DNA from: Eubacteriaceae bacterium
Lineage (GTDB): Bacteria; Bacillota; Clostridia; Eubacteriales; Anaerofustaceae
DNA length: 40,926 nt
NCBI GenBank assembly: GCA_017551505.1
Contig: JAFZLL010000002.1
Location: 1-40,926, forward strand
Reading direction: 5' to 3'
Below, piece after piece: positions 764-20,454 of the stretch. A program made the position numbers and the translations under genes. Each line of letters opens with the position of its first letter. The first letter of the stretch is position 1. The notes under the pieces are model-generated. The model was not told where the DNA came from. It searched no databases and saw only the letters and a list, made by a program, of their open reading frames with translations.

Positions 764-2212
764 TTATTCTGCCTTAGCTGCTGCGGCGGCCTTTGCGGCG
801 TTCTCCTTAGCATAGAAGACTGCCTTGTCGTCGGTGATCTTATAGAATTTCTTGAAGATGATGAATCCGATCACGGAGCAGGCAAGAGGTACAAAGCAGT
901 AAACATTCATATAGGAATTCTGGAACTTCTTGAATTCTTCACTGGCTCTGTCGAGAGTGCCGGCGTTGTTCTCTGCATTGAACTTATCGAATCCGATCTT
1001 AGCAAGGAACAGAGGTCCGATAAGTCCGCCCAGGACAGAGGTCATCTTCATGGGCACGAAGGAGAAAGCGGAAACGACTGCTCTGTAGTCCTTGCCTGTC
1101 TTGTAGTATCCATACTCGCCGATATCAAGGACATAGTTCGCGCCGAAGCCTGACTGCAGGTACAGAATACCGCTGTTGATGACGCCGATCAGGGTCATGA
1201 AGTAAACGCTCTTAAGACCGAGCAGTCTGTAGAGAACGTAGGCGGCCCATCCGGCAAACTGAGCGATGTAAAGGCTCTTGAGCTTTCCGAGCTTGACACC
1301 GATCTTCGGCACGAACAGGGAGAAGATGAAACCGGCGGTCGTCGAGATTCCCATGCCGATGGAATACCAGTTGAGGTATGCGCTGGAGCCGTCCGGCATT
1401 GCCATGACGAGCGTCCAGTAGTAAATGCCGATAACGGACACGATCTGTGTGCCAAGCTGGACAACGATCTGCCAGATCAGGTAGACGATCAGCTGGTCGT
1501 TGCCGCCGACAGCCTTTACCATATCTCCGAGGGTGACGATCCTTCTCGGGGCGTTGGGGTCTCTCGGCTGCTCCTTGCCCTCGATCGATTTAACGAACAG
1601 CATGGTAAGGATGAGGTAGATAACGGCGCCGATAGCAGTATAAATCGTATATCCCAGTTCGGCGTTATTCGCAAGCTTTCCGATGAGGGTGATAACAGGA
1701 ACCGTTCCGAAAGAACGAAGGATTCCCATACCTGCGGAGATCTGAGTATTCCTCTGGGCAATGGCGATACGGTCAGTGTAGTTGCCGCCTGCCATGACGG
1801 ATACGAGGCCGTATCCGACGGTGGACAGGTAGTTCATTGAACCGTGCATCAGGATGTAGCTGACTGCAATGATAGCGAACTTGGCAGCGAACGGCATCCC
1901 GCCGATAGGAAGCATCTGTCCTACGGCGCCGATGGTGACTGTCCAGCGGAAGATCTCCAGAATGGGCACATACTTGCCTTTCTTGAAGTTGGCTGATTCG
2001 ATGACTGCGCCGGCTGTGAGGCAGATGAAGAAGTCCGCGACCTTGGCGACCGTGAAAACGGTAGCCATCTGGACCATGGTGATTCCCAGATATGTGGTCA
2101 TGAACATCGTGCCGTACATGTACGGGGTCATGATGGCTATAGTCTGGAAGGACGACATCAATGCGTATATCCAGATCTGGCCGTTCGAAACAGTACGTTT
2201 TTGTTCTGTCAT
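764..2212 (-). CDS. GPH/MFS_2-family transporter, paralogue 2
   Basis: A 482-residue polytopic membrane protein, the usual length for glycoside-pentoside-hexuronide:cation symporters, with about 12 hydrophobic segments. After MTEQKRTVSNGQIW come the VADFFICL and NFKKGKY segment, MMAGGNYTDRIAIAQRN-like text, and a soluble central loop EGKEQPRDPNAPRRIV before the second half. A conserved DIGEYGYYKTGKDYRAVV segment follows, and the end is lysine- and alanine-rich. Start: ATG at 2212 with GGAGA upstream, the same arrangement as in the next gene. It is nearly identical to the gene at 2530-3978, so these two are the youngest duplicates. Substrate unknown; a sugar or sugar acid is only the family expectation. 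Confidence 0.88.
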   Translation of the reverse strand: MTEQKRTVSNGQIWIYALMSSFQTIAIMTPYMYGTMFMTTYLGITMVQMATVFTVAKVADFFICLTAGAVIESANFKKGKYVPILEIFRWTVTIGAVGQMLPIGGMPFAAKFAIIAVSYILMHGSMNYLSTVGYGLVSVMAGGNYTDRIAIAQRNTQISAGMGILRSFGTVPVITLIGKLANNAELGYTIYTAIGAVIYLILTMLFVKSIEGKEQPRDPNAPRRIVTLGDMVKAVGGNDQLIVYLIWQIVVQLGTQIVSVIGIYYWTLVMAMPDGSSAYLNWYSIGMGISTTAGFIFSLFVPKIGVKLGKLKSLYIAQFAGWAAYVLYRLLGLKSVYFMTLIGVINSGILYLQSGFGANYVLDIGEYGYYKTGKDYRAVVSAFSFVPMKMTSVLGGLIGPLFLAKIGFDKFNAENNAGTLDRASEEFKKFQNSYMNVYCFVPLACSVIGFIIFKKFYKITDDKAVFYAKENAAKAAAAAKAE

Positions 2213-2249
2213 GATAAGAATTATTTCTCCTTAATATTTTTATTCTTCA

Positions 2250-2271
2250 ATCCTTCCGCGTAGGTAAGGAT
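2250..2271 (-). promoter_or_regulatory. Leader stem-loop of transporter paralogue 2
   Basis: ATCCTT (2250-2255) pairs with AAGGAT (2266-2271), with possible extra CC/GG pairing inside. It lies in the 5' leader, about 20 nt upstream of the ribosome binding site. It is part of a ~78-bp block (2213-2290) almost identical to 3979-4056. Confidence 0.5.
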
Positions 2272-2275
2272 CAAA

Positions 2276-2288
2276 TTCAAAATTTGAA
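2276..2288. promoter_or_regulatory. Palindrome TTCAAAATTTGAA in transporter leader
   Basis: Arms TTCAAA/TTTGAA around a central A. The same 13-bp sequence occurs at 4042-4054 in front of paralogue 3, downstream of its promoter, where a repressor or an RNA structure could act. Confidence 0.4.
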
Positions 2289-2323
2289 GCGCTTCTTAAC
2301 GATACTAATTTTAATACACGATT

Positions 2324-2352
2324 AATATACCACTGACATATCTGTATGTCAA
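2324..2352 (-). promoter_or_regulatory. Promoter with embedded palindrome, transporter paralogue 2
   Basis: Minus strand: TTGACA (2352-2347), 17-bp spacer, TATATT (2329-2324). A perfect inverted repeat TGACATA-TCTG-TATGTCA (2334-2351) overlaps the -35 element and most of the spacer, a typical operator position. The right arm is degraded in paralogue 3. Confidence 0.7.
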
Positions 2353-2480
2353 TCTAAACACAGGGTAAAAACGAAAAAGACAAATTGAAATACAATTACA
2401 TTTCTGATTAATAGCTTGCGGATATTTCTTTGATCCAGTAACGCAAAAGAAGGAAGAACAAAGAACAGATGAATTACATA

Positions 2481-2505
2481 AAAAAGGGACCGTTTGAACG
2501 GTCCC
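2481..2505 (-). terminator. Intrinsic terminator of transporter paralogue 3
   Basis: Stem GGGACCG/CGGTCCC (2486-2505), followed on the minus strand by a T run (2485-2481 are all A on the plus strand). It lies just past the stop codon at 2530. Confidence 0.82.
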
Positions 2506-2529
2506 TAAATCTGCAAGAATAGCTTTTGT

Positions 2530-3978
2530 TTATTCTGCCTTAGCTGCTGCGGCCGCCTTTGCTGCATTCTCTTTAGCATAGAAGACAGCCTTGTCATCGG
2601 TGATCTTGTAGAATTTGGCGAAGATGATGTATCCGATTATGGAGCATACTAACGGAGCAAAGCAATAAACGTTCATGTAAGAATTCTGGAACTTCTTGAA
2701 TTCCGCGCTGTTCCTGTCGAGGGTGCCCGCAGCGTTTTCAGCGTTGAACTTATCGAATCCGATCTTCGCAAGGAACAGAGGTCCGACAACACCGCCGAGG
2801 ACGGAAGTAAGCTTCATGGGAACGAAGGAGAAAGCTGAAACGACAGCTCTGTAGTCCTTGCCTGTCTTATAGTATCCGTATTCGCCGATATCCAGAACGT
2901 AGTTCGCGCCGAAGCCTGACCTGAGGTAAAGGATACCGCTGTTGATGACGCCGATCAGGGTCATGAAGTAAACGCTCTTAAGACCGAGCAGTCTGTAGAG
3001 GATGTATGCAGCCCATCCGGCAAACTGGGTGACGTAAAGGCTCTTGAGCTTTCCGAGCTTGACACCGATCTTCGGTACGAACAGTGAGAAGATGAAGCCA
3101 GCGGTCGTAGAGATTCCCGATCCGATGGAGTACCAGTTGAGGTAGGCGCTGGAGCCGTCCGGCATTGTCATGATGAGCGTCCAGTAGTAAATGCCGATAA
3201 CGCTCATTACCGATGTGCCGAGCTGGACGACGATCTGCCAGATCAGGTAAACGATCAGCTGGTCGTTGCCGCCGATAGCCTTCATCATGTCTCCGAGGGT
3301 GACGATCCTTCTCGGGGCGTTGGGGTCTCTCGGCTGCTCCTTGCCTTCGATCGATTTGACGAACAGCATGGTCAGAACGAGGTAAATGACGCATGATACA
3401 GCGGTCCAGATCGTATATCCCAGTTCAGCATTGTTCGCAAGCTTGCCGATGAGGGTGATAACAGGAACCGTTCCGAAGGCACGAAGGATTCCAATACCTG
3501 CGGAGATCTGAGTATTTCTCTGAGCAATGGCGATACGGTCAGTGTAGTTGCCGCCTGCCATAACGGATACGAGACCGTATCCGACGGTGGACAGGTAGTT
3601 CATCGAACCGTGCATAAGAATGTAGCTGACCGCTATGATAACGAACTTCGCGGCGAACGGCATTCCGCCCATCGGGAGCATCTGTCCTACAGCGCCGAGG
3701 GTAACTGTCCAGCGGAAGATCTCAAGAATAGGCACATACTTGCCCTTCTTGAAGTTGGCTGATTCGATGACCGCGCCGGATGTAAGGCAAATGAAGAAGT
3801 CCGCGACCTTGGCGACCGTGAAAACGGTAGCCATCTGGACCATGGTGATTCCCAGATATGTGGTCATGAACATCGTGCCGTACATGTACGGGGTCATGAT
3901 GGCTATGGTCTGGAAGGACGACATCAAAGCGTAGACCCAAATCTGGCCATTCGTAACAGTACGTTTTTGTTCTGTCAT
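2530..3978 (-). CDS. GPH/MFS_2-family transporter, paralogue 3
   Basis: A 482-residue multi-pass transporter, colinear with paralogue 2 and differing mainly by scattered conservative substitutions. It keeps the SGAVIESANFKKGKYVPI loop, the EGKEQPRDPNAPRRIV central loop, the DIGEYGYYKTGKDYRAVV segment and the AAKAAAAAKAE-like tail. The start ATG at 3978 and the leader block (3979-4056) match paralogue 2 almost base for base, so the duplication unit included regulatory DNA. It has its own promoter and terminator and is likely an independent transcription unit. Substrate unknown. Confidence 0.88.
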   Translation of the reverse strand: MTEQKRTVTNGQIWVYALMSSFQTIAIMTPYMYGTMFMTTYLGITMVQMATVFTVAKVADFFICLTSGAVIESANFKKGKYVPILEIFRWTVTLGAVGQMLPMGGMPFAAKFVIIAVSYILMHGSMNYLSTVGYGLVSVMAGGNYTDRIAIAQRNTQISAGIGILRAFGTVPVITLIGKLANNAELGYTIWTAVSCVIYLVLTMLFVKSIEGKEQPRDPNAPRRIVTLGDMMKAIGGNDQLIVYLIWQIVVQLGTSVMSVIGIYYWTLIMTMPDGSSAYLNWYSIGSGISTTAGFIFSLFVPKIGVKLGKLKSLYVTQFAGWAAYILYRLLGLKSVYFMTLIGVINSGILYLRSGFGANYVLDIGEYGYYKTGKDYRAVVSAFSFVPMKLTSVLGGVVGPLFLAKIGFDKFNAENAAGTLDRNSAEFKKFQNSYMNVYCFAPLVCSIIGYIIFAKFYKITDDKAVFYAKENAAKAAAAAKAE

Positions 3979-4015
3979 GATAAGAATTATTTCTCCTTAA
4001 TATATTTATTCTTCA

Positions 4016-4037
4016 ATCCTTCCGCGTAGGTAAGGAT
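4016..4037 (-). promoter_or_regulatory. Leader stem-loop of transporter paralogue 3
   Basis: ATCCTT/AAGGAT stem identical to that of paralogue 2 (2250-2271). The TTCAAAATTTGAA palindrome follows at 4042-4054. Confidence 0.5.
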
Positions 4038-4089
4038 CAAATTCAAAATTTGAAGCACATACAAATGATATTATTTTTAATACATGTCT

Positions 4090-4118
4090 AATATATCATC
4101 GCCATATCAACATGTCAA
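4090..4118 (-). promoter_or_regulatory. Promoter of transporter paralogue 3
   Basis: Minus strand: TTGACA (4118-4113), 17-bp spacer, TATATT (4095-4090). The spacer keeps only the left half of the TGACATA palindrome found in paralogue 2. Confidence 0.65.
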
Positions 4119-4236
4119 CAAAACACCTGGCAAAATAAAATACAAAACCATATATAATTCATTGCCTGACAACAGATTGAAGATATCACAAAACTGTTAT
4201 TACAAGAGAAGGAAAAACAAGAGCCAGATGGGCTAC

Positions 4237-4266
4237 AAAAAAACGGGAACCGTTTATACGGTCCCG
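4237..4266 (-). terminator. Intrinsic terminator of transporter paralogue 4
   Basis: CGGG(A)ACCGT pairs with ACGGTCCCG (4244-4266), with one bulged A and a 4-base loop. Seven T follow on the minus strand (4243-4237). It shares the ACCGT core with the terminators of paralogues 2 and 3. Confidence 0.82.
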
Positions 4267-4295
4267 CTTTTATTGATAATAATCAACGTTACAGC

Positions 4296-5753
4296 TTATT
4301 TTGCAGGAGCAGCTTTGGCAGCTTCAGCAGTTTTCTTGGCATTCTCCTGTGCATAGAATACAGCCTTGTCGTCGGTGATCTTGTAGAATTTCTTGAAGAT
4401 AAGGAAGCCTATCACGGAGCAGGCAAGAGGCACAAAGCAATAGACAGCCATGTACTGTTTCTGGAATTTCATGAATTCAGCACTATTTCTGTCCAGCGTA
4501 CCGTCGAGATTGGCCTGATTGAACTTATCGAATCCTATGAAGGAAAGGAAATAAGGAGCTATAGCGCCTCCAATGACGGCAGTAAGCTTCATGGGCACTG
4601 ATGTAAATGCAGTGACAACAGCTCTGTAGTCCTTGCCTGTCTTGTAATATCCGTATTCGCCGATATCAAGGACATAGTTGGCACCGAAGCCCATCTGCAG
4701 GTAGCGTACAGCAGACACAGCAAGTCCGATGGCTGTCATCCAGTAAACGCTCTTCAGACCCAGGAACCAATAGAGGATATATGCAACCCACCCGCCGTAC
4801 TGCGCAAAAAACAGGCTCTTAAGTTTTCCGAGTTTAACACCTAATTTAGGGATAAACAGCGAGTATACAAAACCTGCGCAGGTATTGAGGCCCATACCGA
4901 TGGAATACCACTTGAGGTAAGCGCTGGAACCGTCAGACATGACCATGACAAGCGTCCAGTAGTATATTCCGATAACTGAAACAATTTGGGTACCAAGCTG
5001 AATTACGATCTGCCATACCAGATAGACGACCAGCTGATCGTTCCCAGTAAGCGCCCCCAGCATATCCTTGATCTTGACGACCCGTCTCGGGGCGTTGGGA
5101 TCTCTGGGCTGTTCTTTACCGGTCATCTCCTTGGCCAGCCAGAATGTGCAGGCGATATAAAGGATAATAAAGAATATCGTATACACGGTGTAACCGAGTT
5201 CCGGCTTTCCTAAAAGCTTCCCCAACAAGGTGATGAGAGGCACAGTTCCGAAAGAGCGCAGGATGCTGACGCCTGCAGAAATCTGGGAGTTGCGCTGAGT
5301 GATTGCGATACGGTCGGAGTAATTGCCTCCCGCCAGGACTCCAATCAATCCTGTATTGGCAGTCGACAGGAAGTTCATCGATCCATGCATCATGATGTAA
5401 CTGATGGATATGATCGTGAATTTAAGTGCCATCGGCAAATTGCCTATGGGAAGCATCTGCCCCAGTGCGCCGATAGTAACTGTCCATCTGAAGAGCTCAA
5501 TTATCGGAAGATACTTGCCCTTTTTGAAGTTTGCGGACTCAATGACGGCTCCCGAAGCCATGCAGATAATGAAATCCATGAATTTTGCCACGAGGAAAAT
5601 CGTTCCCATCGTTGCCATGGAAATGCCCAGATAAGTGGTCATGAACATGGTACCGTACATGTACGGGGTCATGATGGTGAACGTTTGCATCGCGCTTGTC
5701 AGTGCATAGGCCCAAATCGCACTGTTGGAAATAGACCGCTTCTGTTCAGTCAT
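4296..5753 (-). CDS. GPH/MFS_2-family transporter, paralogue 4
   Basis: A 485-residue multi-pass transporter and the most diverged complete member of the array. It shares MTEQKRS, TMFMTTYLGIS, SGAVIESANFKKGKYLPI, GKEQPRDPNAPRRVV and DIGEYGYYKTGKDYRAVV. It differs in the 5'-half helices and ends in AKAAPAK rather than AAAKAE. Start: an in-frame ATG exists 36 bases further upstream, but the ATG at 5753 aligns with the MTEQKR starts of the paralogues and has AGGAGAA (5765-5770) 11 bases before it. Promoter, leader hairpin and terminator are its own. Substrate unknown. Confidence 0.87.
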   Translation of the reverse strand: MTEQKRSISNSAIWAYALTSAMQTFTIMTPYMYGTMFMTTYLGISMATMGTIFLVAKFMDFIICMASGAVIESANFKKGKYLPIIELFRWTVTIGALGQMLPIGNLPMALKFTIISISYIMMHGSMNFLSTANTGLIGVLAGGNYSDRIAITQRNSQISAGVSILRSFGTVPLITLLGKLLGKPELGYTVYTIFFIILYIACTFWLAKEMTGKEQPRDPNAPRRVVKIKDMLGALTGNDQLVVYLVWQIVIQLGTQIVSVIGIYYWTLVMVMSDGSSAYLKWYSIGMGLNTCAGFVYSLFIPKLGVKLGKLKSLFFAQYGGWVAYILYWFLGLKSVYWMTAIGLAVSAVRYLQMGFGANYVLDIGEYGYYKTGKDYRAVVTAFTSVPMKLTAVIGGAIAPYFLSFIGFDKFNQANLDGTLDRNSAEFMKFQKQYMAVYCFVPLACSVIGFLIFKKFYKITDDKAVFYAQENAKKTAEAAKAAPAK

Positions 5754-5789
5754 GAAGAATGATTTCTCCTTATATAGTATATTTTTCAA

Positions 5790-7693: not shown

Positions 7694-8419
7694 TCATTCG
7701 AATTTTACATTATCAAGAAGATCAAGCACTGGCTCATCTTTCAAGATGCTCTTGTGGTAAAGATAAACAGAAGGATCGGACAGTTCCGGGTGTTCCTCCA
7801 TCAGCCTGGCGCTGATCTCCTCTGCCCTGCCGATAATATCGGCGACTTCGTCATCTTTGTATATCCTGCCCAAGGCATACATCTGATTCCTGATCATGAA
7901 GCCGATATATTCGCGGAACTTCTCATCGCTGAGTTTTCCGGATCCGCAGGAAACAAGATAATAATACTTTATCCCCAGGCGGAGAGCGTAGAACAGCGAG
8001 TCAATCTGAGTATTCTTCAGAGCCTTCTTATCGGCCATGCCGATCAGGGCGTTCAAATGGCTCTTGGCTACAAAGTTATATACCTTGCTTCCATTAAGCA
8101 GTTCGCCGGATGCCTCCGAGACAAACCTGGCCATAAGAGGAGAAGCTGAACAGATACGGTGGATGACGAATTCATATACCGCATCGGCAAGCAGCGGATC
8201 CTTAATACTGTCGGTATATTGTACTACATAAGAAAAAACTATCTGATAGTTTTCGGCAAATATCACCCCCGCCACATTGCCGAGTTCCTTAAAGTAGTAA
8301 TTTATCATGCTCTGGTTTATCCCCGACAGTTCCGAAACCCTGCGTTTTGTCGTATTCTTGAACCCTTCCTCAAAGAATAGAATCTTGGCACATTCGTATA
8401 TCCTCTGTTTCGAATCCAT
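7694..8419 (-). CDS. TetR/AcrR-family transcriptional regulator
   Basis: A 241-residue DNA-binding regulator. The N-terminal ~47 residues form the TetR helix-turn-helix: RIYECAKILFFEEGFKNTT, then RRVSELSGINQSMINYYF, the recognition-helix pattern ending in YYF. The long C-terminal half would be the ligand and dimer domain, and the ligand is unknown. Start: ATG at 8419 with GGAGGT (8433-8428 region) before it; the upstream 30 in-frame codons look like leader. An extended -10 promoter (TGCTATAAT) lies 34 bases upstream. It is unlinked to any divergent efflux gene, and the nearest possible target is the amidase gene downstream on the same strand. Confidence 0.85.
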   Translation of the reverse strand: MDSKQRIYECAKILFFEEGFKNTTKRRVSELSGINQSMINYYFKELGNVAGVIFAENYQIVFSYVVQYTDSIKDPLLADAVYEFVIHRICSASPLMARFVSEASGELLNGSKVYNFVAKSHLNALIGMADKKALKNTQIDSLFYALRLGIKYYYLVSCGSGKLSDEKFREYIGFMIRNQMYALGRIYKDDEVADIIGRAEEISARLMEEHPELSDPSVYLYHKSILKDEPVLDLLDNVKFE

Positions 8420-8452
8420 GATTAGAACCTCCCTTTTCGATGTTCTAATAAA

Positions 8453-8461
8453 ATTATAGCA
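8453..8461 (-). promoter_or_regulatory. Extended -10 promoter of the TetR gene
   Basis: TGC-TATAAT on the minus strand (8461-8453). The -35 region at 17 bp is poor, as extended -10 promoters allow. Confidence 0.5.
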
Positions 8462-8630
8462 AGAAAAAATATTTTGGACTATATTTTGTACGTAAAATAT
8501 GGCAAACAATTAAATTCAACTCGAAATGCCATTTTAAAACACGTTAAACAGTTTTATAACCTCAATATTAACAGTATGTTCACGAATTTATGATTTATAA
8601 AACAAAGGAACTCCCGGACAGAGTTCAAAA

Positions 8631-16779: not shown

Positions 16780-17874
16780 CTAATCGTCAAGGCCGAACAT
16801 CATTGCCATTTCCCTGTCTACATGCCGCCTCTGGTTAAGCATATTCAGATACTCGGCGGATACCTGATCGCCGAGGAGCGCATCCGGACAGCAGACCCTG
16901 CCGATATCCAGCCCGCTTTCGGATATTTCCCTAAAGGCTTCATAATAATACATCAGCAGCTCATATTCCGGGGCATCCCTTCTAAGTATCGTCAGACGTA
17001 CAGGCTTATTGCCGAGGCCGCATGCTGAAATCGTACCGAGCCATTCATTGATCCGGCTGCCTGACAGACGAACGGACTTACCGCCATCCCATTCCGCTGC
17101 TTCCTTCTTTCCATCAGTGTAATAACCGCCTTCATAGGATAGGCTGATGTAGTCGGCATAGTCCCCCTTGAGATTCTTTTTAATTCTTATCGGTCCGGAA
17201 GAAATTCCCGCACTCATTGTCCTGAAAGCTGAAAGTCCCCTGAGCGCAGCGTATCCGGCGGCATCCTTATCTGAACCGTTTGCTGGAAAATACACTTTCG
17301 CATTCATCGTAAAGGAGACACTTATCTCATCTCCGAGATAGCGGTGGAGCAGTTCATAAGCGGCTATATGGCAATCGGCTATATTCTCCAGACACTTCTT
17401 ATATGCGCTCCTGCTTTTAGCAAAGGGAGGCTCGCTGCCGATCAGCCAGCTCCTGAATGCATACTCATTAGGTTCATCGAAGGTAATGAAATCCTCTGCC
17501 AGATCCTTCAAGGCCTCGGCTGTCCTTCTTATATAGTTGAGATAATCCTCCTTGCAGGAAGGGGAAAGGAAACCGCCGTCTTTCATGAACCACTGCGGGC
17601 CGCCGCTCACGAAAAGGATCACCTGCGGCGAGATCCCCGCTTCCCTAAGTGCCTTCAGCACGTACTGCACTTTTACGGTATAATAGGTATCAAAGATGCC
17701 TTTCACCGGCTCAGCCTCAGCCCATTCATATATAAAGGGGCAGTAGGTGACTCCTCCCTCTTTTAAAGTCGATATATACTCATTAAGCTCGTCCCCAAGC
17801 ATCCCGGTGTTTACGCTGCCGGCGAAGGAGATGACCTGGCCTTTCTGCAAAACATAACGCTCCATGACTGTCAC
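16780..17874 (-). CDS. GH1-like (beta/alpha)8 protein lacking the nucleophile motif
   Basis: A 364-residue protein that reads as a shortened glycoside hydrolase family 1 barrel. EWAEAEPVKGIFD matches the SWSRIEPxxGxFD block, and ITFDEPN (Glu134) matches the TFNEP acid/base motif. LENIADCHIAAYELL matches the H..LLAHG..V helix, ADYISLSYEGGYY matches DFIGINYYT, and KPVRLTILRRD (290-300) takes the place of KPIYITENG. The nucleophile Glu is therefore missing, and the N-terminal substrate Gln segment is not recognisable. It is likely a binding protein or an enzyme with altered chemistry. No signal peptide. Start: the GTG at 17874 lies 4 bases and the ATG at 17865 lies 13 bases after AAGGAGG, so the choice is uncertain. 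Co-transcribed with the CPBP gene. Confidence 0.6.
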   Translation of the reverse strand: MTVMERYVLQKGQVISFAGSVNTGMLGDELNEYISTLKEGGVTYCPFIYEWAEAEPVKGIFDTYYTVKVQYVLKALREAGISPQVILFVSGGPQWFMKDGGFLSPSCKEDYLNYIRRTAEALKDLAEDFITFDEPNEYAFRSWLIGSEPPFAKSRSAYKKCLENIADCHIAAYELLHRYLGDEISVSFTMNAKVYFPANGSDKDAAGYAALRGLSAFRTMSAGISSGPIRIKKNLKGDYADYISLSYEGGYYTDGKKEAAEWDGGKSVRLSGSRINEWLGTISACGLGNKPVRLTILRRDAPEYELLMYYYEAFREISESGLDIGRVCCPDALLGDQVSAEYLNMLNQRRHVDREMAMMFGLDD

Positions 17875-18445: not shown

Positions 18446-18474
18446 TTGACAATTTGAAATCCAAATTGTATAGT
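18446..18474 (+). promoter_or_regulatory. Promoter with internal operator, UroD-family gene
   Basis: TTGACA (18446-18451), 17-bp spacer, TATAGT (18469-18474). An inverted repeat ACAATTT-N7-AAATTGT (18449-18469) fills the space between the two elements and touches both, a classic repressor position. An 8-bp leader hairpin CGGACTGC/GCAGTCCG (18516-18536) follows. Confidence 0.75.
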
Positions 18475-18597
18475 AATTTTGGTTATTTCAGTTTGAATCA
18501 GCTTTTTCGTTCGTGCGGACTGCACACAGCAGTCCGGGCCCGATCCGAGCTGCATGGATATCGGAAATAACGCATTTGATACCAGGAGGTTTATTTC

Positions 18598-19647
18598 ATG
18601 GCAAAAGTAACGCCTAAGGAAAACTTTTTAAAGCTGCGCCATGGCGGATTCCCGGATTATGTACCTTTCTACTCGATAATGGGGACACCGTACAAAGGCG
18701 AAGCTTCTGTAGTCGGAGCGATGGATCCGTTCTGGACACGTCCCAGAGGAACAATGGTTCCCGGACAGCCGTACAAGGATCTCTGGGGAGTACCGTATAA
18801 GGCACCGGAGAATCTGGCTTCAGCTATGCCCGATACAACAGTTACGATCCTCGAGAACATCCACGATTGGTCCAAAGTGATCAAATTCCCCGAACCAAAT
18901 CAGAACGTCGATCTGGAGCAGACCTATAAAGAGGCAATGACCCATATCGACCGCACACAGTCCTGCCTGAAGATCGGCCCGAACCTGCAGCCCTTCCAGG
19001 AATTAGTCGCGCTGATGGGCTTCGAAGGAGGCCTCGTGGCCCTTTACGAAGAGCCGGAAGAGGTCAAGGCAATGCTCAACGCGATGGTAGACCATCTCGA
19101 ACCGTACTATACAAAGTTTTTTGAAGTATATAAACCCGATTTCTGGGGCATGACCGACGACACGTGTGCGAAGCTTGCTCCGTTCTTCTCACCGGACGTA
19201 TACGAGGATGTGTTCCTGCCCATCTACAAGAGGCTTTCAAAGCCCGCACAGGACAATGACGTTCCCGTTCTTTTCCACAACTGCGGTAAGGAAGACGCTT
19301 TCCTTGATTTCATGGTGGATTTCGGAGTCGAAGTCACAGAACCCTCCCAGGAAGTCAACGATATCCTCGCCCTCAAAGAGGAATATAAGGGCAAGATGAC
19401 CTTCGCGGGCTGCTGGGGATGGACCGACCACATGCCCAAAAACTACCCCGATTTCGATGAAGAAGAACTGCGTGCAGATATCCGCGCGACCATAGATAAA
19501 TATGCCCCGGGCGGAGGATTCGCTTTCGCCGGATTCCCTGTCAGCGTCAAAGGAGATACGGCTATCGACAGAGTATGGGAGATCATGCGCGACGAAGTAT
19601 ATTACTACGGCAAGAAAGTTTACGGCTATACCGGAGATATCGACTGA
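18598..19647 (+). CDS. UroD-fold methyltransferase-like protein (uroporphyrinogen decarboxylase family)
   Basis: A 349-residue cytoplasmic protein of the URO-D superfamily, which covers heme-pathway decarboxylases and the corrinoid:coenzyme M or O-demethylation methyltransferases. It carries VLFHNCGKED, the HxC zinc-ligand pair of MtaA-like methyltransferases (His227, Cys229), and a later FAGCWGW with Cys272 as a possible third ligand. The N-terminal arginine signature of true HemE is absent. This favours methyl transfer, but no corrinoid protein or partner methyltransferase is adjacent. Start: ATG at 18598 with AGGAGGT just before. It is monocistronic with a strong, operator-bearing promoter, so probably inducible. 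Substrate unknown. Confidence 0.75.
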   Translation: MAKVTPKENFLKLRHGGFPDYVPFYSIMGTPYKGEASVVGAMDPFWTRPRGTMVPGQPYKDLWGVPYKAPENLASAMPDTTVTILENIHDWSKVIKFPEPNQNVDLEQTYKEAMTHIDRTQSCLKIGPNLQPFQELVALMGFEGGLVALYEEPEEVKAMLNAMVDHLEPYYTKFFEVYKPDFWGMTDDTCAKLAPFFSPDVYEDVFLPIYKRLSKPAQDNDVPVLFHNCGKEDAFLDFMVDFGVEVTEPSQEVNDILALKEEYKGKMTFAGCWGWTDHMPKNYPDFDEEELRADIRATIDKYAPGGGFAFAGFPVSVKGDTAIDRVWEIMRDEVYYYGKKVYGYTGDID

Positions 19648-19977: not shown

Positions 19978-20454
19978 ATGAGGTCGGACGGCCGTTCCCG
20001 ATTCCTCCCTGATTACAGATTCACGAATACGATAAGCGAAACGATAGACATTTCCGGAACGAAAACCTGGGTAGACGGCGGCAAGGAGCATGACAACGCT
20101 AAGGAGATCACCCTGACGCTGAAGCGCAAGAGCGCTAAGGAAGGCGCTCAGGAAGAGACCGTCGAAGCCACACCCACATGGGAAGGAAGCACCTACACCT
20201 TCTCCGAACTGCCCAAGTATGAGATTGTTGATGGTGAACTATACGAGTACACCTGCACCGTTTCCGAAGAAGCGATAGAAGGCTATAAGACAGTTCAGGA
20301 TGGTTTCAATTTCACTAATCGGAGCGATGGAATACCGCAGACCGGCAACAACCCCAATTTTGTCGCCTGCATGCTGCTGATGATCCTGTCATATGTAGTA
20401 GCGATATCGGTCATGGTGGTTATGAAAATCCGCAAAAGAAGGCATGCATGCTGA
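19978..20454 (+). pseudogene. Decayed C-terminal remnant of a Cna-B/LPXTG surface protein
   Basis: 158 codons hold one Cna B-type domain (~20-115: ISGTKTWVDG, YTFSELPKY, YTCTVSEEAIEGY, FNFTN). A sortase-like IPQTG (119-123), a membrane helix (~127-150) and a basic tail RKRRHAC follow. Such domains form the stalks of wall-anchored adhesins and pilins. There is no signal peptide, ribosome binding site or promoter. The frame opens at DYRFTNT, the usual end of a preceding repeat. Codons in another frame at ~19935-19985 (ILYSFPELGSTDGKYEV) resemble the matching part of that lost repeat, which implies a frameshift. It is therefore probably the tail of a broken gene. Confidence 0.65.

Follow-up and report, generated by a model that had tools for sequence, protein, structure and literature searches.

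The UroD-type methyltransferases I (MT I) of acetogens (MtvB, OdmB, VdmB and CdmB) have the UroD fold in common with the protein described here, and CdmBCA shows a three-part layout of UroD protein, corrinoid protein and MtrH-type methyltransferase II (MT II) (PMC13222342) that resembles two loci of its relatives (L212 and L213). In E. limosum, three MttB-type enzymes (MtpB, MtcB and MtyB) are described as methylating one MtqC; the benefit proposed was that enzymes encoded apart can be induced separately (PMC8604678). MtaA and core-MetE resemble our protein in fold (Z 22.0 to 4ay8) and in a His-x-Cys (HxC) pair, and core-MetE also in an acidic residue 19 positions after the Cys (PMC7005905). 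COG0523 GTPases of subgroup 13 are found beside corrinoid methyltransferases in methanogen and clostridial loci (PMC2770081); likewise, by gene context, a CobW-type GTPase adjoins UroD genes of the subfamily studied here.

The locus differs from each of these systems. Unlike the genes for MtvB, OdmB, VdmB and CdmB, ours has no adjacent carrier or MT II, and in its genome UroD genes greatly outnumber carriers; the likeness is one of fold and of the relatives' layout. With the MtqC hub (PMC8604678) it would share the plan of many donor-specific enzymes encoded apart and served by one carrier, one MT II and one activase; however, the enzyme families are unrelated (MttB there, UroD here), and the sharing that was shown there we infer here. 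In contrast to MtaA and core-MetE, the protein lacks the distal Cys, and it scored 36.6 bits with the NCBIfam MtaA model against a cut-off of 400. Compared with COG0523 subgroup 13, the GTPase of the relatives is ~200 aa long, with the His-rich part in a separate ORF without a Pfam match, and our gene itself has no such GTPase neighbour.

The window, by which we mean the whole analysed stretch of 40,926 nt from a Eubacteriaceae bacterium, contains the gene at 18598..19647 (+ strand; 349 aa). It stands alone between a divergent GH1-match ORF (16780-17874, upstream) and a Cna_B protein (19978-20454, downstream). Reading the ORF list of the window by eye revealed no corrinoid gene, and neither of the two B12-binding matches listed for the genome lies on the window contig. 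The closest regulator-like ORF that we noticed in the window, 10 kb from the gene, is a TetR_N match below cut-off (7694-8509, − strand; 20.5 bits against 24). The first-pass annotation's description of a gene with neither a corrinoid protein nor a regulator beside it thus holds. The TetR_N-match ORF is perhaps self-regulated; a 7-bp-arm palindrome lies over a 10/12 promoter-like site at its likely promoter (8478-8505). Elsewhere in the window, three tandem, closely similar transporters of 482, 482 and 497 aa, the first an MFS_2 match, occupy 764-5789 (− strand), and the promoter-like site upstream of the first (2324-2352, − strand) also has a 7-bp-arm palindrome; MFS_2-like genes occur near some other UroD genes too (L018, L093, L107 and L150). 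The Cna_B-domain protein (+ strand) ends in an IPQTG-like C-terminal sorting motif and a transmembrane tail.

Upstream of the gene is a predicted sigma-70-type promoter, TTGACA-17-TATAGT (18446..18474, + strand), with 11/12 consensus matches: the predicted −35 is at 18446-18451 and the predicted −10 at 18469-18474, with a 17-nt spacer. By itself the consensus match is weak, since the 2.2-kb stretch around the gene has three promoter-like sites where 2.4 were expected from shuffles, of which this one scores best. The spacer is filled by a perfect palindrome, ACAATTTG-N5-CAAATTGT (18449..18469), with 8-bp arms and a 5-nt centre, that overlaps the final three bases of the −35 and the first base of the −10. 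A promoter spacer, with both hexamers clipped, is a usual position for a repressor, and we regard the palindrome as a candidate operator. The inverted repeat at a near-consensus promoter that had been noted at first is therefore present, but its arms are 8 bp rather than 7 and it overlaps the hexamers rather than lying exactly between them.

The palindrome could still be a chance product of a strong promoter that no repressor binds, which we consider a real though doubtful possibility; it bears on the switch and not on the enzyme. Part of the symmetry already comes from the −35 hexamer and from the T(G)T that precedes the −10. No second copy of the 16-base palindrome with two or fewer mismatches was found in the own genome, so a search for the same repeat near a regulator or a corrinoid gene, as had been proposed, drew a blank; in the genus's other genome there is a single site, with two mismatches. 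A looser 14-base pattern gave two further 2-mismatch sites in the own genome against one for the reversed control, i.e. second sites appear only at two mismatches and at control level. The palindrome is likewise absent upstream of the other UroD ORFs, the next best being 4 mismatches off, in a set of 164 ORFs (162 with at least 200 nt upstream) that includes repeats from overlapping loci and counts the window gene three times (L002, L009 and L015). Against chance, only 0.08% of random 17-nt spacers give arms of at least 8 bp, and when 308,575 bp of the own genome (about one-fifth of it) were scanned, the window promoter alone had them out of 112 promoter-like sites (≥10/12), where 0.09 were expected. 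Arms of at least 7 bp are also in excess (4/112 versus 0.48 expected from random spacers), and a relative (L119) has a different palindrome, with 9-bp arms, across a 9/12 promoter-like site. Arms of this length at a promoter are unusual, not overwhelming. A candidate operator private to the window gene is plausible from these patterns; we identified no cognate regulator for it, and the tight operator control proposed at first is at most plausible. Within L011:1501-2048, one 14-base, 2-mismatch copy lies 84 bp upstream of an ORF (1605-2048) that reads by eye like Lrp/AsnC. We rejected it as a second operator because the arms do not match perfectly and a site turns up with the reversed control as well, and at control level it is a weak lead only.

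Between promoter and start codon, the leader contains a predicted hairpin, CGGACTGC-N5-GCAGTCCG (18516..18536, + strand), the core of a larger fold (18476-18600) with a folding energy of −37.7 kcal/mol (z −2.66; 2/200 shuffles equally stable), in keeping with the stable leader hairpin first proposed. A conserved leader RNA was rejected: no Rfam family reached its gathering score in the leader, and no matching hairpin was seen by eye amongst 18 upstream stretches. The ribosome-binding site, AGGAGG (18584..18589, + strand), is 8 nt ahead of the ATG.

The only Pfam match of the protein is PF01208 (residues 90-256; 40.4 bits, gathering cut-off 23.9), which places it in the URO-D superfamily. An AlphaFold2 model built on an input alignment with 11 relatives and paralogues (mean pLDDT 86.4, pTM 0.86) had UROD entries as its best structural matches (Z up to 23.1), the fold match spanning residues 4-344. 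M. mazei MtaA (4ay8) was matched over 298 residues at 14% identity, and MetE with a Z of about 13. By sequence, the only solved structure found was MtaA 4ay7 (E 0.71; profile E 0.0026), and a C45 paralogue matched nothing useful amongst solved structures. The best NCBIfam matches are MtaA-type models, far below cut-off, and the cut-offs for MtbA (20.8 of 600 bits) and CmuA (25.9 of 235.4 bits) were similarly not reached. Motif columns, Pfam and the model support a UroD-superfamily, methyltransferase-like protein other than HemE, as the first-pass annotation had read it, and we propose that it is a methyl-donor:corrinoid protein methyltransferase I.

The HxC pair reported earlier is present, as H227-N-C229. 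The motif residues are D187, D188, H227, C229, E248, N254 and D255, of which D187, D188, H227, C229 and N254 are kept in 17/17 own paralogues and D255 in 16/17. E248 is 19 residues after C229, and 7/17 own paralogues have Asp or Glu at that column; in core-MetE, Cys217 and Asp236 are likewise 19 apart (PMC7005905). The zinc site of MtaA and core-MetE combines His-x-Cys with a distal Cys, and where those enzymes have the distal Cys our protein has Gly. Three of the four expected zinc ligands are therefore possible, as judged from the alignment. Amongst corrinoid-linked enzymes, the crystallised UroD-type MT I CdmB is described as being without zinc, a metal that the same source attributes to the veratrole and vanillate O-demethylases (PMC13222342). 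The original comparison with the HxC zinc pair of corrinoid-linked methyltransferases is thus correct as to the pair itself, but is weakened by the absent distal Cys and the zinc-free CdmB.

We examined the methyl-transfer genes of the own genome (G000; 1.56 Mb), which encodes 17 UroD homologues. Its corrinoid carriers, each with B12-binding and B12-binding_2 domains, are of type A (contig C38) and type B (contig C18), and a third B12-binding_2 match was counted. By eye, no methyltransferase was recognised beside the type-A carrier. The end of contig C17 holds another type-B start, of which 12 residues, identical to those at C18, are visible before the contig stops, and contig C45 begins with what reads by eye as a corrinoid-protein C-terminus, followed by two UroD genes; contigs C17, C18 and C45 may break within repeated corrinoid genes. 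MtrH-like proteins are encoded on C16 (60% to the MtrH of L212) and C17 (44%). The latter is most similar to a G014 MtrH adjoining a type-A carrier (L178, 340 bits), so the genome may have two hubs. The activase RACo is on contig C17, beside apparent folate C1 genes (by eye), and acetyl-CoA synthase is on contig C26. MttB and UroD were the user families looked for in G000; there are no MttB candidates, so the users of the carriers here are not MttB enzymes. Carrier, MT II and activase are all encoded in the same genome as the window gene, at other loci, and the lack of any corrinoid system, which had been named as evidence against the first proposal, was not what we found.

Two TetR genes in this genome each diverge from a type-B corrinoid gene start (L076:588-756 and L069:16272-16457), and both intergenic regions carry TTACCGTGGT-N6-ACCACGGTAA (exact at L076:615, two mismatches at L069:16368). 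Across 18 own-genome stretches, the only other site with five or fewer mismatches was L062:18864 (5 mismatches), just under 9 kb away from that stretch's UroD gene. On this result, we rejected this sequence as an operator common to corrinoid hub and spoke.

Relatives were collected from genomes that are mostly MAGs, with genes taken as simple ORF selections and neighbours found by phmmer (20 query proteins, E 1e-5). The closest proteins are 61-68% identical (L082-L090) and derive from MAGs whose titles point mostly to ruminant guts. The best relative in the other genome of the genus (G001) is at most 44% identical, so the window gene looks accessory. In a tree of 63 selected UroD proteins (quick search, SH-aLRT; arbitrarily rooted, with two long rows meeting, and with HemE, MtaA and O-demethylase references left out), the protein clusters with the L082 and L083 tandem pairs (support 95), and this cluster falls within a 12-row clade (100) to which CobW-linked members also belong. 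At 16 loci (L022 and L024-L038, of which L038 is cut by a contig end), a subfamily gene adjoins a CobW-type GTPase in 16/16 and a His-rich ORF in 15/16. The same UroD-CobW-His-rich arrangement is found at the own paralogue on C30 and in L088-L090 and is a recurrent cassette; the GTPase appears with no recognised His-rich ORF in L084, L111, L113 and L114 (Sporobacter termitidis). His-rich ORFs of ~150 aa following the GTPase (L065:6640-7095, L090:7622-8071 and L192:8912-9379) look like a split-off metal-binding part of CobW, and the two scanned (L065 and L192) had no Pfam match.

Links to corrinoid genes are rarer. In two of the 16 CobW-linked loci (L028 and L031), a corrinoid gene lies immediately upstream, and the corresponding wider stretches, L212 and L213, carry in a row on one strand MtrH, a corrinoid gene, a UroD gene of the subfamily, a CobW GTPase and a His-rich ORF, an apparent operon that encodes the UroD protein with both a corrinoid protein and an MT II, an arrangement absent at the window. 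Our own type-B carrier is 65-67% identical to their corrinoid proteins. No corrinoid or MtrH match was seen in four 20-kb cassette stretches (L192-L195), and amongst 79 loci from named genomes, many with short flanks, a corrinoid match was found in one (L132), 4.9 kb off and on the other strand. For the closer relatives, the corrinoid link therefore rests on gene inventory, and L212 and L213, as the best evidence, suggest a corrinoid-linked subfamily with a separable partner; their UroD proteins are ~37% identical to ours and nearer to own paralogues C30 and C33a. In two further loci (L091:3266-10495 and L092:3274-10509), UroD orthologues (54%) are flanked by a glycyl-radical enzyme gene and, in convergent orientation, by DUF3786, RACo and a CooC-like ATPase. 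MtrH adjoins a type-B carrier in G004 and G005, the pair in the latter being placed between folate C1 genes (by eye) and a CdhD-type protein; in G000 and G001, MtrH follows genes reading by eye as rnpA, yidC and jag.

The ratio of enzymes to carriers was compared across the order, with UroD counted as homologues of the window query (lower bounds; 34 candidates were scored in G002, G005 and G010) and B12-binding_2 counts including MetH. The own family has at least 172 UroD homologues to 17 B12-binding_2 matches in eight genomes with UroD hits (5/13 genomes have none), genus g10 at least 280 to 422 (17 genomes), family f5 at least 80 to 91 (six genomes) and the 10 remaining genomes with hits at least 28 to 135. 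The ratio is thus ~10:1 in own-family genomes with the subfamily, versus 0.2-0.9:1 in other genomes of the order (rank test on the first three groups, P 3.6e-5, relatedness ignored). Counting against a hub-and-spoke arrangement, G007 has carriers and MtrH with no hit of the subfamily, so carriers have other users there.

The protein might instead run the transfer in reverse: in the manner of MtaA, core-MetE or the Mlp proteins, it would be a zinc-thiol enzyme that passes a methyl group from a methyl-corrinoid protein to a thiol or selenol. HxC and zinc are best known from thiol-methylating enzymes, which counts against a donor-side methyltransferase and suits this alternative, as do the core-MetE-like acidic residue, the MtaA-type models as top, if far sub-threshold, NCBIfam matches, and the GTPase of a family linked to metal insertion that adjoins many members. 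We nevertheless judge it unlikely: the distal Cys is absent, L212 and L213 already have MtrH as the methyl-accepting enzyme, and 17 thiol methylases in 1.56 Mb would be difficult to explain. A corrinoid-free UroD-fold enzyme, e.g. a zinc enzyme with direct transfer or a lyase reaction, would fit the flanks of 78/79 loci, which have no corrinoid gene, the tens of paralogues per one or few carriers and the conserved pairing with a metal-chaperone-like GTPase. It too is improbable, given the rows with MtrH and corrinoid genes in L212 and L213, and the RACo activase and CooC-like ATPase adjoining the gene in L091 and L092, though convergent. Uroporphyrinogen decarboxylase proper (HemE), a placement that would have told against the first proposal, is ruled out, as no HemE NCBIfam model matched up to E 0.1 and the HemE signature P-x-W-x-M-R-Q-A-G-R is absent.

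The reading that we favour, and consider probable on sequence and analogy, is that of a donor-specific methyltransferase I 'spoke' acting in trans with shared corrinoid 'hubs' encoded elsewhere, perhaps under its own switch. It gains from the 17 paralogues set against two carrier types, and from members of the same subfamily standing in line with MtrH and a corrinoid gene in two related genomes. An inducible demethylation component working in trans had been one of the initial suggestions; the paralogue count and the L212/L213 layout argue for it. Starting from what is directly established (the sequence anatomy, predicted fold, gene inventory and contexts of the relatives), we infer activity, substrate, partner, metal or zinc, direction of transfer and regulation by a repressor along the following lines. 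The enzyme would demethylate a single kind of small methylated compound and load the methyl group onto a corrinoid protein in the Co(I) state, for which the type-B carrier of contig C18 is the likeliest candidate. From there, the MtrH-like methyltransferase of C16 or that of C17 would transfer it to tetrahydrofolate, feeding the Wood-Ljungdahl pathway, and cobalt that had become inactivated would be reduced again by RACo (C17). The window gene would be one of 17 spokes sharing one or two hubs, held silent by a repressor bound to the 18449-18469 palindrome for as long as its substrate is absent.

Hub sharing by MttB enzymes is known; a UroD version, with the window gene as one member, would be apparently new, as we found no account in the open-access literature of UroD methyltransferases sharing a carrier or outnumbering carriers ten-fold. 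More broadly, and tentatively, at slightly less than an even chance, a Eubacteriaceae-like gut and sediment lineage may have rebuilt its methyl feeding as a UroD hub-and-spoke system of 10 to >30 substrate-specific spokes, of which many stand by themselves and some have a switch of their own, with 1-3 carriers and in part with a split CobW/His-rich metal-insertion pair, the window gene being a spoke. How the 26 methyltransferase systems of Acetobacterium dehalogenans are regulated has been described as largely unexplored (PMC13222342). If our reading is true, a gap of this type becomes testable, and the window promoter offers a compact site at which to look for the regulator of an orphan UroD methyltransferase. 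Such a bacterium could then take up the use of a further methylated substrate by gaining a single gene, and its complement of orphan UroD genes would tell which plant or drug compounds are open to it.
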